DNA from: Winogradskyella wandonensis
Lineage (GTDB): Bacteria > Bacteroidota > Bacteroidia > Flavobacteriales > Flavobacteriaceae
Length of the DNA stretch: 64,000 nt
Reading direction: 5' to 3'
Assembly: GCF_004346845.1 (NCBI RefSeq)
Contig: NZ_SMGI01000002.1
Location: 248,001 to 312,000 of the forward strand
Shown here: positions 34,006-63,900 of the stretch, in pieces
How the letters are laid out: each line of letters starts with the position of its first letter
Numbering within the stretch: the stretch's first letter is position 1
Notes under the pieces: generated by a model
Told to the model about the DNA's origin: nothing
The model's input: the letters and a program-made list of their open reading frames with translations, nothing else
Databases searched by the model: none
Translations under genes and position numbers: made by a program

Positions 34006-34188
34006 GCCTCTCTTAATCTCTCCAAAGGAGAGAAATTGTTATCGTTTTATATTTACATTCATTTTTTAAAAGCTTTACCTTTTATTCACATCTATAAGAT
34101 TATTAAACTCTTCAGGAGTCCAATAATTCCTTCCCTTACGCCTCCACTAAAGCTTCAGCGCCACGCGGATGGGAAGGTTAGGATGGGC
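34006..34188. mobile_element. MITE-like element filling the metH-metF gap
   Basis: One end (34006-34032) reads GCC..TTAAT..CTCTCCAAAGGAGAG. The other, inverted, end (34188-34171) reads GCCCATCCTAACCTTCCC, whose palindrome is completed by GGGAAGG 35 bases further in. Both match the ends of the DUF559 element inside metH (GCC, TAA, then a CCAAAGG-centred palindrome). The unit starts two bases from the metF ATG and ends two bases from the metH stop. Its interior has no nuclease gene. It holds only a short open stretch (WTPEEFNNLIDVNKR on the minus strand) without an obvious start. Confidence 0.6.
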
Positions 34189-34189
34189 T

Positions 34190-37100
34190 TTAATCTGCCA
34201 AATTTGGGCTTAACCATTTTTCGGCATCATCAATACTAATTTGTCTTCGAGTTGCATAATCTTCTAATTGATCTTTAGTGATTTTTCCTAATCCAAAATA
34301 TTTGGCTTCTTTATTTCCAAAGTAATATCCACTCACACTTGCTGCAGGCCACATGGCTAAACTTTCTGTTAGCTTTACACCAATAGTTTCTTCAACTTTT
34401 AGCAAGTCCCAAATTGTTTTTTTCTCTAAATGGTCTGGACAAGCTGGATAACCGGGTGCTGGACGAATGCCTTTGTAAGCTTCTTTTATCAATTCTTCAT
34501 TAGATAAATTTTCTGACGTGGCATATCCCCAATGCTTTGTGCGTACTTCTTTATGAAGATACTCGGCAAAAGCTTCAGCTAATCGGTCGGCAAGCGCCTT
34601 TATCATTATAGAATTATAATCATCGTTATTTTCCTCAAACTTCTTTGCTAATTCTGCTGTTCCAAAACCTGTTGTAACGCAAAATGCGCCTATATAATCT
34701 TGTTTTCCTGTTTCTTTTGGAGCTATGAAATCTGCTAAGGCGTGATTTGGAACACCTTCTCGCTTTTTGAGTTGCTGGCGGAGTGTTAGGAATTTTAGGG
34801 TGTCTTTGTCTTCGACTGCGCTCAGACTGACAGAAACCTCAATATCATCATCATTAATTGAATTTGCTGGGAACAATCCAAAAATGGCTTTCGCTTTTAG
34901 CAATGTTTCATTAAAAATCCGTTTCAGTAAATCTTGGGCATCTTTATACAATTCTGAAGCTTGCTCGCCTACGATATCATCTTTTAATATCTCTGGAAAC
35001 TTTCCATGCAAATCCCAACTTCTAAAAAATGGAGACCAGTCGATAAAACTCTCAAGTTTTGTAATATCGAAATCTTCAATGACTTGAATCCCTAATTCGT
35101 TTGGCTTTACGATTTCGGTCTCATCCCAATTGATTTGATATTTGTTTTTACGAGCATCTACAATAGACAAATATTCCTTTCGTTTTCCACGAGATACAAA
35201 TTGCTCTCTAAACTTATCGTATTCCTCTCTGATTTGTTCTTTATAAACCTTGTTATCCTGCTGTAGTAAATTACCAACCACCGTCACTGCTCTTGATGCG
35301 TCATTGATATGTACCACCGTATTATTATAATTCGGTGCAATTTTTACTGAGGTGTGTGCTTTTGATGTTGTAGCTCCACCAATGATTAAAGGAATGTCTA
35401 ATTTTTCCTTTTCCATAGCCTTAGACACATACACCATCTCGTCTAAGGACGGCGTTATAAGCCCACTTAAGCCTATAATATCTACATTTTCTTGCTTTGC
35501 AGTTTCAATAATTTTTTCTGGTGGCACCATAACGCCCAAATCAATAATCTCATAATTATTACAGCCCAAAACCACACTCACAATATTTTTACCAATATCG
35601 TGAACATCGCCTTTTACAGTTGCCATGAGAATCTTGCCCTGCCTTCTAACCTCCAAAGGAGGAACCGCAAGATTCTCTCTAATACTATTTAAAACAAAGT
35701 CAAGATTAGATAAAACTTGATTGTTCGTAAATCTAATTACTCTGAAGCCTTCATTTTCTAGCCATTTTTTTCTCTCTTGGTCAGATACTTTATTTTCAGG
35801 AAGTTGGTGAATAAGTCCATCGATTTCGATAATTAAATTTGTTTTTAAACAAACAAAATCGGCAATGTAAGAACCGATAATATGCTGTCTTCTAAACTTG
35901 TAGCCATCTACTTTTTTGTTATTTAAAACATCCCATAAAAGCGCTTCGGCTTCAGTGGGTTTGTTTCGCATCTCCTTAGCATATGCTTTAAGTAAACTGT
36001 AATTTAGTGGGTCTGCAGTTTTCCAGTGTAAAGTCCCCTTTGGGGATTTAGGGGCTTTTTTTTCTGCTTCAATAAAAGGTTGTAGATATGCCACCGCTTT
36101 TTTCATAACTCGAGCAGACTTTACTACTTGAGGTAAGAACATTTTCCCACTTCCAAAAAGATCTCCAACGACATTCATTCCTGCCATTAAGTTGTCTTCA
36201 ATAACCTCAATAGGTTTTGAAGCTTGCTGTCTTGCTTCTTCAACATCTTCAACTATAAAAGCATCAATCCCTTTCACCAAACTATGCGTAATTCTATCTT
36301 GAAGTGGAGCATTACGCCATTCTAAAACTTTAGTTTCGTCTTCTTTCTTTTGACCTTTGACCGTTTCTGCAAAATCTAAAAGGCGCTCTGTGGCATCTTC
36401 TCTTTTATTAAAAAGTACATCTTCTACATGCTCTAATAAGTCTTTGGGGATTTCGTCATAAACCTCCAAAAGTGTTGGATTAACTATCCCTAAATTCATA
36501 CCATGTTGTATCGCATGATACAAGAATGCTGAATTAATTGCTTCTCTAACAACAGTATTCCCTCTGAACGAAAATGATACATTACTTACACCTCCAGAAA
36601 CGTTAGCATAAGGTAAGTTTTCACGAATCCATTTTGTAGCATTAAAAAAATCGAGTGCATTTAGTTTATGCTCATCCATACCTGTAGCGACAGGAAAAAT
36701 ATTCGGATCGAAAATGATATCTTGAGGTGGGAAATTGACAATATCTGTAAGTATTTTATAAGAACGTTCACAGATTTCAATTCTACGCTCGTAGGTATCG
36801 GCCTGTCCCACTTCATCAAATGCCATAACAATTACCGCGGCACCGTAACGTTTTACAAGTTTTGCTTGGCGAATAAATTCAGCTTCGCCTTCTTTAAGGC
36901 TGATAGAATTCACCACACATTTTCCTTGAACGACTTGCAAACCAGCTTCGATAATTTCCCACTTAGAGCTATCTATCATTATAGGCACACGCGCAATATC
37001 TGGCTCTGAAGCGATAAGGTTTAAGAATTTTACCATGGCATACTTTCCGTCAAGCATACCTTCGTCCATATTTACATCTATAATTTGTGCACCACCTTCA

Positions 37101-37276
37101 ACTTGGTCACGAGCAACATCGAGTGCTTCGTTATATTTTTCTTCTTTAATAAGTCGAAGAAATTTTCTTGAACCTGTAACATTGGTACGCTCTCCAATAT
37201 TGATAAAATTAGACTCTGGTGTAACCACTAATGGCTCAAGACCTGAAAGCGTTAAATATTTATTCTCTTTACTCAT
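34190..37276 (-). CDS. metH: cobalamin-dependent methionine synthase, C-terminal subunit, with inserted DUF559 domain
   Basis: 1028 residues. The layout is: pterin-binding barrel ([16 protein letters not shown], about 15-280); helical cap (about 320-405); a foreign DUF559 nuclease-like domain (407-546); cobalamin domain ([18 protein letters not shown], cobalt-ligand His559); SAM-dependent reactivation domain (about 720-1020, [12 protein letters not shown] and [13 protein letters not shown]). All methionine synthase motifs after the insert are intact and in frame. Without the insert the length would be about 890, normal for the flavobacterial C-terminal MetH. The homocysteine-binding part is the separate gene eight bases upstream. 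Together they remethylate homocysteine using 5-methyl-THF. The reactivation domain also holds an in-frame copy of a dispersed repeat (VSLSAVE). Confidence 0.93.
34811..34833. repeat. dispersed palindromic repeat in frame inside metH reactivation domain
   Basis: TTCGACTGCGCTCAG followed by ACTGACAG on the + strand. Read on the minus strand it encodes SVSLSAVE, between NDDDIEV and [12 protein letters not shown]. In E. coli MetH the same loop (after GDDIEI) has unrelated sequence. Other copies lie at 6253, 10204 and 16984. Confidence 0.65.
35641..36055 (-). mobile_element. DUF559-encoding element inserted in frame in metH
   Basis: The ends are inverted repeats. The right end on the + strand (35641-35662) is GCC, TTC, TAA, then CCTCCAAAGGAGG. 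The left end on the minus strand (36055-36035) is GCCCC, TAA, AT, then CCCCAAAGGGG. Between them a DUF559 domain is encoded: [35 protein letters not shown] and [12 protein letters not shown]. The PD-(D/E)xK/Vsr-like residues Asp473, Glu484, Asp486 and His490 (MetH numbering) are present, so the nuclease may be active. Even the repeat ends are translated (APKSPKGT and VPPLEVRRQ). No stop, frameshift or obvious internal start is seen, so it is made only as part of MetH. No clear target-site duplication was found. Confidence 0.8.
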
Positions 37277-63864: not shown

Positions 63865-63900
63865 GCCCCATTGTCCTACGGACATTTCCCCAAAGGGGAA
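63865..63900. repeat. end-like copy of the CCCCAAAGGGG repeat family
   Basis: GCCCC, then a small hairpin TGTCCTACGGACA (63872-63884), then TTCCCCAAAGGGGAA (63886-63900), starting five bases after the nucleoside transporter stop. It matches the element ends in metH and between metH and metF. Its partner end, if any, lies beyond the window. The last 100 bases hold nothing else recognisable. Confidence 0.55.

Follow-up and report, generated by a model that had tools for sequence, protein, structure and literature searches.

The methionine synthase gene metH of Winogradskyella wandonensis carries, in frame within its coding sequence, a DUF559 nuclease domain bordered by two inverted palindromes that are themselves translated. 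The gene lies in the stretch of 64,000 nucleotides that was analysed here as a whole (the window; positions 248,001 to 312,000 of contig NZ_SMGI01000002.1, assembly GCF_004346845.1), and the coordinates given below are those of the window. From sequence comparison we consider it probable that the insert is a homing-like, transposable element of the repetitive extragenic palindromic (REP) type, one that is never spliced and that is carried in MetH as a passenger domain. The element would be a complete small mobile unit, namely a DUF559 nuclease gene between two inverted REP-like palindromes, and in related species the same sites are variously empty, filled by a lone palindrome, or occupied. Its parts are the following:

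34190..37276, minus strand: metH (folate/cobalamin/activation part), carrier of the in-frame element; open reading frame and Pfam, 1028 aa
35641..36056, minus strand: the insert (about 416 bp; residues about 407-546 of MetH), delimited by analogy with the two sharp-edged copies of locus L054 (see below) and from the empty W. jejuensis allele
35669..36010, minus strand: DUF559 (Vsr-like) nuclease domain, MetH residues 423-536; Pfam, structure prediction, Foldseek and alignment
36031..36056, minus strand: left terminal repeat, AGCCCC-TAAA-TCCCC-AAA-GGGGA-CTT, translated APKSPKGT; sequence and empty-site alignment
35641..35665, minus strand: right terminal repeat, an inverted copy with the palindrome CCTCC-TTT-GGAGG and a degenerate outer arm, translated VPPLEVRR; sequence and empty-site alignment

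The inserted domain and its ends

The metH frame (34190-37276, minus strand) is open from end to end over 1028 aa, without stop or frameshift, and the element itself contains no stop codon in the phase used in MetH. Pfam finds B12-binding_2 at residues 326-398, then DUF559 at 429-536 (E 2.6e-35) and then B12-binding at 547-639; the PF04480 score of the insert is 121 bits vs a curated cut-off of 20.6. The insert is thereby placed at the junction between the helical cap and the cobalamin domain, just before the cobalt-ligand motif. The initial annotation, made from the sequence alone, had described a full DUF559 domain in frame at this junction, an uninterrupted frame and borders formed by translated inverted palindromic repeats, and the open frame, Pfam and the sequence of both ends bear all of this out. 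Its account of an insertion holds for the in-frame insert but needs amending: DNA alignment with the empty gene of the sister species W. jejuensis, which reads DGKAEF where the element sits, indicates that some 6-7 host residues were replaced, so that the event was not a pure addition. An assembly artefact is ruled out by the recurrence of the element in many genomes. Neither MetE (PF01717; control positive in 10/14 known genomes) nor a second MetH was found in the W. wandonensis genome, so that, short of methionine auxotrophy of the strain, the fused enzyme has to be functional.

In the AlphaFold model of the fusion (predicted local distance difference test, pLDDT, 78; predicted template modelling score, pTM, 0.48), a prediction that the initial annotation had proposed, the MetH modules align to solved MetH structures and the insert forms a separate domain (423-536) on low-confidence linkers (407-421 and 539-545). 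Modelled alone, the DUF559 domain reaches a pLDDT of 87, and Foldseek relates it to 3hrl (E 4e-9), to the homing endonuclease I-Bth0305I (3r3p, E 4e-4) and to Vsr (1cw0, E 0.012), in agreement with the Vsr/PD-(D/E)xK fold claimed for it. The acidic and histidine residues expected of such a domain are present as well: E, D, D, H and R, which we take to be the EDxHD residues, are invariant in 116/116 fused copies, a further conserved E being missing in 2/116. EDxHD enzymes form a recognised family of homing endonucleases, according to the excerpt of PMC3943268 consulted.

The border palindromes, TCCCCAAAGGGGA (36034-36046) and CCTCCAAAGGAGG (35650-35662), are inverted relative to each other, and each has an additional arm on its outer side, degenerate at the right end. 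The limits of the unit emerge from L054 (genome G281), a single MetH with two copies of the element that are 83% identical, gapless and exactly 418 bp long, AGCCCC...GGGGCT, while their flanks are unrelated to each other; the stretch common to both copies is, as this comparison indicates, the mobile unit. Both copies are entered at codon phase 2 and left at phase 0. The second of these MetH sites holds just an in-frame palindrome, VSPLGGDLEAAVFRTLRQQ, in the relative L059 and no palindrome in W. wandonensis (L001) or W. jejuensis (L196); five further genes were tried and did not match the search pattern.

Among 131 distinct nuclease copies, a palindrome was found in the left flank of 114 and in the right flank of 115, vs 3 and 0 in shuffled flanks; palindromes stand at both ends of 96/117 fused copies, and 21/786 background windows from the same loci were positive. 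A third arm copying the stem over at least 4 bases lies on the outer side in 155/229 ends and on the inner side in 90/229, the inner position being that of the palindrome type with a TTGA loop. YCYCCAAAGGRGR is matched 13 times in the W. wandonensis genome (G000, 2.96 Mb) and the same pattern reversed not once, so the element ends are repeated elsewhere in the genome, as the genome-wide search suggested at the outset was meant to establish.

Occupancy, hosts and distribution

When 68 genomes of the genus were searched with the fused protein, MetH proved occupied in 4 (G000, G010, G019 and G030) and empty in 44, and 20/68 did not show both MetH halves (a hand count of result rows). The closest empty allele, that of W. 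jejuensis DSM 25330 (G018), is 97% identical at the protein level over residues 1-407 and 95% over 546-1028. No donor of the MetH insert was recognised, its nearest relative being only 74% identical at the DNA level. Alignment with relatives, another of the checks proposed, thus finds the insert patchy in the genus, and neither an insert inherited vertically by all relatives nor ends confined to this one place, the two outcomes named beforehand as contrary to mobility, was observed. Palindromes without the nuclease are also placed in frame within other genes, a second point on which the initial annotation needs amending. In W. wandonensis they are translated in the genes of LeuRS, an E2 acyltransferase, an amidohydrolase and the RuvC C-terminus (names by eye), and in two conserved genes, LeuRS of G000 and G029 and MetH site 2 of L059, a translated palindrome is matched by empty relatives. 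The LeuRS palindrome, VDSSPLGKSDGA, is common to G000 (L280) and G029 (L264) and missing from the other aligned LeuRS genes, most of which carry VNDAEPTKDN-type sequence at its position; G010 and G019 (L282/L283) have another solo palindrome at a different place in LeuRS.

The only other DUF559 match of W. wandonensis is likewise in frame, within the 848 aa of RecG, and directly precedes the motif MTATPIPRT. Matches occur in 48/68 genomes of the genus, in 107/299 genomes of a family sample (E ≤ 1e-15) and in 155/395 of a phylum sample (E ≤ 1e-22). A survey of 100 regions, mostly picked for large frames, with Pfam scans of 31 host open reading frames, placed DUF559 in or on 21 Pfam-named host families: MetH, RecG, IleRS, LeuRS (two sites), HsdR, PALP dehydratase, HemD, HisD, HsdM, Eco57I-type methylase, HemF, HisF, RNase H, M23 peptidase, a mutase/MeaB fusion, type ISP, PurL-like, N6_N4 methylase, MmeI-like, UvrD-type helicase and FGase. 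A recognised host domain stands on both sides of DUF559 in 9/21 families, and in the others DUF559 is N- or C-terminal; for L144, L162 and L174 Pfam gave no domain naming a host. The copy in RecG and these many hosts in other taxa answer the proposal that DUF559 be sought within unrelated Bacteroidota proteins. By eye, the insert often directly precedes a strongly conserved motif: GDVHDIGKN in MetH, TATPIPRT in RecG, GWAGSSW in LeuRS, HTQGSGKS in HsdR and DPAVGSGHF in methylases. Two host assignments were revised, L036 from dihydroorotase to HsdR by Pfam, and L032/L084 from ValRS to IleRS, which we take to be the host from the DUF5915 tail in L032 and also from length. N-terminal fusions of DUF559 to HemD (L056, L065, L067, L071, L075-L077, L079 and L083) and to PALP dehydratase (L037-L040 and L045) recur in many genomes (Pfam on L071 and L039, the rest by eye).

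The median ratio of non-synonymous to synonymous substitution rates (dN/dS) of the nuclease is 0.19 at the MetH site (8 usable of 120 pairs) and 0.06 at the RecG site (7 of 171), and that of the hosts is 0.10 for MetH and 0.04 for RecG. These ratios indicate that the inserted nuclease is under purifying selection.

Carriage by phages or plasmids was rejected: the 27 plasmid records with DUF559, some of them chromosome-sized, include none of Bacteroidota, and there are only 3 phage records, two of them without a named host. We fetched 14 non-Bacteroidota records, 13/27 plasmid and 1/3 phage (6 cyanobacterial, 2 Deinococcus, 5 alphaproteobacterial and 1 phage). C/T-rich palindromes, detected with a looser hairpin finder, surround DUF559 on both sides in 10 of these, stand on one side in 3 and do not occur beside it in the phage. 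With shuffled flanks the yield per record was 0 to 0.95, the highest value being that of the GC-rich L302. In the cyanobacterial records the palindromes are repeated around genes, and therefore chance association may exceed that in Winogradskyella. The sole clear in-frame case among the 14 is in Pseudanabaena (L303/L306), where DUF559 lies inside an Eco57I-type methylase. On a Sphingomonas plasmid (L296) the suf operon has a DUF559 gene, flanked on either side by palindromes, between sufB and sufC, and on cyanobacterial plasmids (L292, L294, L298 and L304) DUF559 genes are neighbours of DUF1156 or BREX PglX methylase genes, a defence-like setting.

Homing as the proposed explanation, and its rivals

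In the MetH tree (115 rows, 27 occupied) at least 14 occupancy changes are required, 10 of them forced by starred branches. The nuclease tree (128 rows) shows 25 changes of insertion-site label, the least possible being 12 and the shuffled mean 88, on 110 columns only, with 13/125 branches starred and with labels from a motif script that misplaces a few rows, such as L045. RecG-site nucleases fall into one clade (18/18), and 16/18 of those at LeuRS site 1 stand together. Lineages mostly faithful to their site, at sites repeatedly gained and lost, are, as far as these trees can tell, the pattern of a homing element. Mobility is strongly supported by the sequence comparisons, and the initial proposal, that the ends and cargo of a mobile element keep an open frame and thereby allow it to persist inside essential genes, is upheld by the patchy occupancy, the repeated ends, the RecG copy and the many hosts. 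Nuclease-driven homing, which had been raised as a possibility, we infer from the site-specific lineages together with the homing-endonuclease-like fold of the putative nuclease; these speak for it, but a clear co-conversion gradient does not accompany them.

Several results weigh against homing or blunt the evidence for it, among them the limits of the nuclease tree just given. (i) No identity gradient into the insertion flanks was seen in 9 pairs; just downstream of the W. wandonensis insert, identity to W. jejuensis is 89%, four other host segments being at 94-98% and a fifth at 81%, so that this one-sided drop is only suggestive. (ii) No target-site duplication was seen. (iii) MetH-site nucleases do not make one clean clade (16 + 6 + 6 singles). 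(iv) Distances of nuclease and host correlate weakly for MetH (r 0.36) and strongly for RecG (r about 0.85), so RecG-site occupancy appears mostly vertical. (v) The insert has a lower synonymous divergence (dS) than its host in every usable MetH pair (8/8) and in the 3 RecG pairs that are closest, and a higher one in the remaining 4 RecG pairs; low insert dS was rejected as a sign of recent transfer because it is reversed in these 4/7. (vi) Palindromes stand at both ends in only 4/14 solo nuclease copies. (vii) Stop codons among strong genus matches, counted by hand in 6/29 unfused and 0/39 fused copies, make a contrast that is partly built into the recognition of fused copies. (viii) TTGA-loop palindromes are commoner where a matching nuclease is present (median 14 vs 0, p 1e-7, without phylogenetic control), with at least 3 copies in 21/22 genomes that have it and in 15/46 that do not, nucleases being assigned to this type by eye from frame length and score; exceptions such as G011, G014, G022 and G055 are rich in copies although no nuclease of the type is listed for them, and under phylogenetic control the association is not significant (30/68 genomes, 5 independent pairs). 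Physical linkage is therefore the stronger argument for a partnership of nuclease and palindrome.

In the mechanism that we propose, the predicted nuclease would cut the conserved DNA around an empty site, and repair from an occupied allele would copy the element into the cut. Rarer ectopic events, guided by the palindromes, would place the element or a lone palindrome at new sites. Since the nuclease would fold as a passenger on flexible linkers, namely the translated repeats, no splicing would be needed, and the essential host gene would shield the nuclease from decay by nonsense and frameshift mutations.

It is unlikely, in our estimate, that the nuclease is mere cargo, the palindromes being spread by other machinery or by repeat recombination and the occupied alleles by ordinary homologous recombination. 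The missing co-conversion gradient, the solo palindromes at many places and the copy-number link that fails phylogenetic control would all fit this, and so would the metH2 tract (37732-34214), about 95% identical to W. jejuensis (L196) vs mostly about 75-85% outside it, from which we conclude that the gene as a whole has probably been exchanged between species and that ordinary recombination seems to move it. A candidate mobiliser exists too: REP-associated tyrosine transposases (RAYTs) are HUH/Y1 transposases, and a match to Y1_Tnp (PF01797, RAYT-type) occurs in 31/68 genus genomes. However, none (0 matches) was found in W. wandonensis or W. jejuensis, both of which carry the palindromes, and cargo would need neither five invariant active-site residues (116/116) and purifying selection nor site-specific nuclease lineages; nor would it lead one to expect palindromes on both sides of DUF559 in 10/14 records from outside Bacteroidota.

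We regard as more doubtful again, indeed improbable, a beneficial domain fusion in which the host uses the nuclease for repair, defence or regulation and the linkers derive from repeats by chance. Purifying selection on the nuclease and several DNA-acting hosts (RecG, HsdR, HsdM, Eco57I-type, type ISP and UvrD-type) are in its favour, as is a Caulobacter DUF559 protein described as a Vsr-like enzyme in the excerpt seen of PMC12907096. Restriction-modification hosts might make use of a nuclease, but metabolic enzymes and tRNA synthetases hardly so, and the hosts include many without a known DNA role (MetH, LeuRS, IleRS, HemD, HemF, HisD, HisF and PALP); the patchy occupancy within the genus and the presence of the same repeats as solo palindromes likewise tell against a useful fusion. 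The least credible reading, to which we allow a very slim chance, is that the insert is removed before the enzyme acts, as an intein, intron or translational-bypass element that has escaped recognition. Inteins sit beside conserved motifs, a habit that the element has in common with them, and Foldseek finds a fold common to an intron-type homing endonuclease. The Pfam scan of the fusion (E ≤ 1e-6) contains no Hint/intein splicing domain, and an intron (group I or group II) was rejected because no Rfam family exceeds its gathering score in 35000-36700.

Known systems and further palindromes

With its predicted nuclease, the proposed homing-like REP-type element has a trait in common with each of the known kinds of element and matches none of them: it fails the intein, intron and RAYT tests, and the chances that it is a class of its own are in our view even. 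Rickettsia palindromic elements (RPE) are in-frame, translated palindromes in conserved proteins. The solo palindromes described here resemble them in this, whereas the full element has a nuclease gene between two inverted repeats that is translated as part of the host protein; we know of no nuclease-bearing RPE. REPs inside genes, and RAYT-linked REP families, occur in several taxa (PMC3733652, in the part seen), and intragenic REPs resemble the solo palindromes in the same way. With the REP/REPIN-RAYT systems (PMC3733652; see also PMC3116915 and PMC6006769) the element has in common inverted palindrome-with-tail units, doublets and a repeat-flanked nuclease gene, but the gene encodes DUF559 instead of HUH/Y1, and the ends are AGCCCC...GGGGCT vs GTAG/CGTC. 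Inteins and group I introns, as the excerpt of PMC3943268 presents homing endonuclease elements, are alike in site-bound lineages beside conserved motifs, in patchy occupancy and in the EDxHD, I-Bth0305I-like fold; they differ in that no splicing module was found here and that the nuclease appears to be retained in the host protein. PMC7282813, in the part available, divides homing elements into two classes that splice themselves and the WHO elements of yeast, which need no splicing. The latter also home into an essential gene, but a WHO gene is located downstream and takes the place of the 3' end of FBA1, whereas here the coding sequence is interrupted in frame. Stand-alone DUF559 or Vsr-like proteins (3hrl; Caulobacter VsrA, PMC12907096, in excerpt) have the same domain and are not embedded in another enzyme.

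We found no description of an in-frame DUF559 insertion element among titles and abstract openings from the openly licensed literature (CC0/CC BY/CC BY-SA), although one may exist elsewhere, and an in-frame nuclease inside unrelated enzymes looks like an undescribed life-style of selfish DNA. Selfish elements in coding DNA have been thought to need splicing, like introns and inteins, or tiny size, like RPE. Another solution appears here: a folded nuclease on disordered linkers, at tolerant junctions near the catalytic motifs of essential enzymes, where selection on the host would prevent decay. Whether this amounts to a further structural class of homing element, REP-type, with its own Vsr-like nuclease that homes into conserved genes and stays as a permanent passenger on palindromic linkers, DUF559 being the nuclease partner of a RAYT-independent REP system in Bacteroidota, Cyanobacteria, Deinococcus and Alphaproteobacteria, we would put at an even wager. 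If it does, DUF559, a widespread domain of unknown function, would gain a natural role, REP-like palindromes would gain a mobiliser in strains without RAYT, and the oversized LeuRS, RecG and MetH proteins of Bacteroidota would be explained; the empty, solo-palindrome and occupied alleles of relatives would then be natural experiments on how domains enter proteins.

The window holds 4 palindromes of this kind, and five first-order simulated sequences held 0, 1, 3, 1 and 1. Two of them are without a nuclease:

34018..34032, no strand: solo palindrome CTCTCC-AAA-GGAGAG, outer arm CCTCTC, in the metF-metH interval; same family of repeats, without nuclease; pattern search
63886..63900, no strand: solo palindrome TTCCCC-AAA-GGGGAA, which fits the same repeat pattern; pattern search

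The W. jejuensis counterpart (L137) of the palindrome at 63886-63900 lies in no frame of more than 52 codons. Other solo palindromes (L122, L123 and L126) stand directly 5' of three start codons, for pyrF, a topoisomerase A subunit and atpG (genes and starts judged by eye), and their GGAGG-type arms resemble ribosome-binding sites of the Shine-Dalgarno kind. Doublets also occur: TTGA-loop palindromes of the genus are often inverted, REPIN-like pairs whose match starts are about 52-54, 74 or 120 bp apart in the listed rows, and a palindrome doublet spans the ruvC-hemW junction (L131-L133; names by eye), one copy giving hemW an N-terminal sequence of the SSPLGKLE type.
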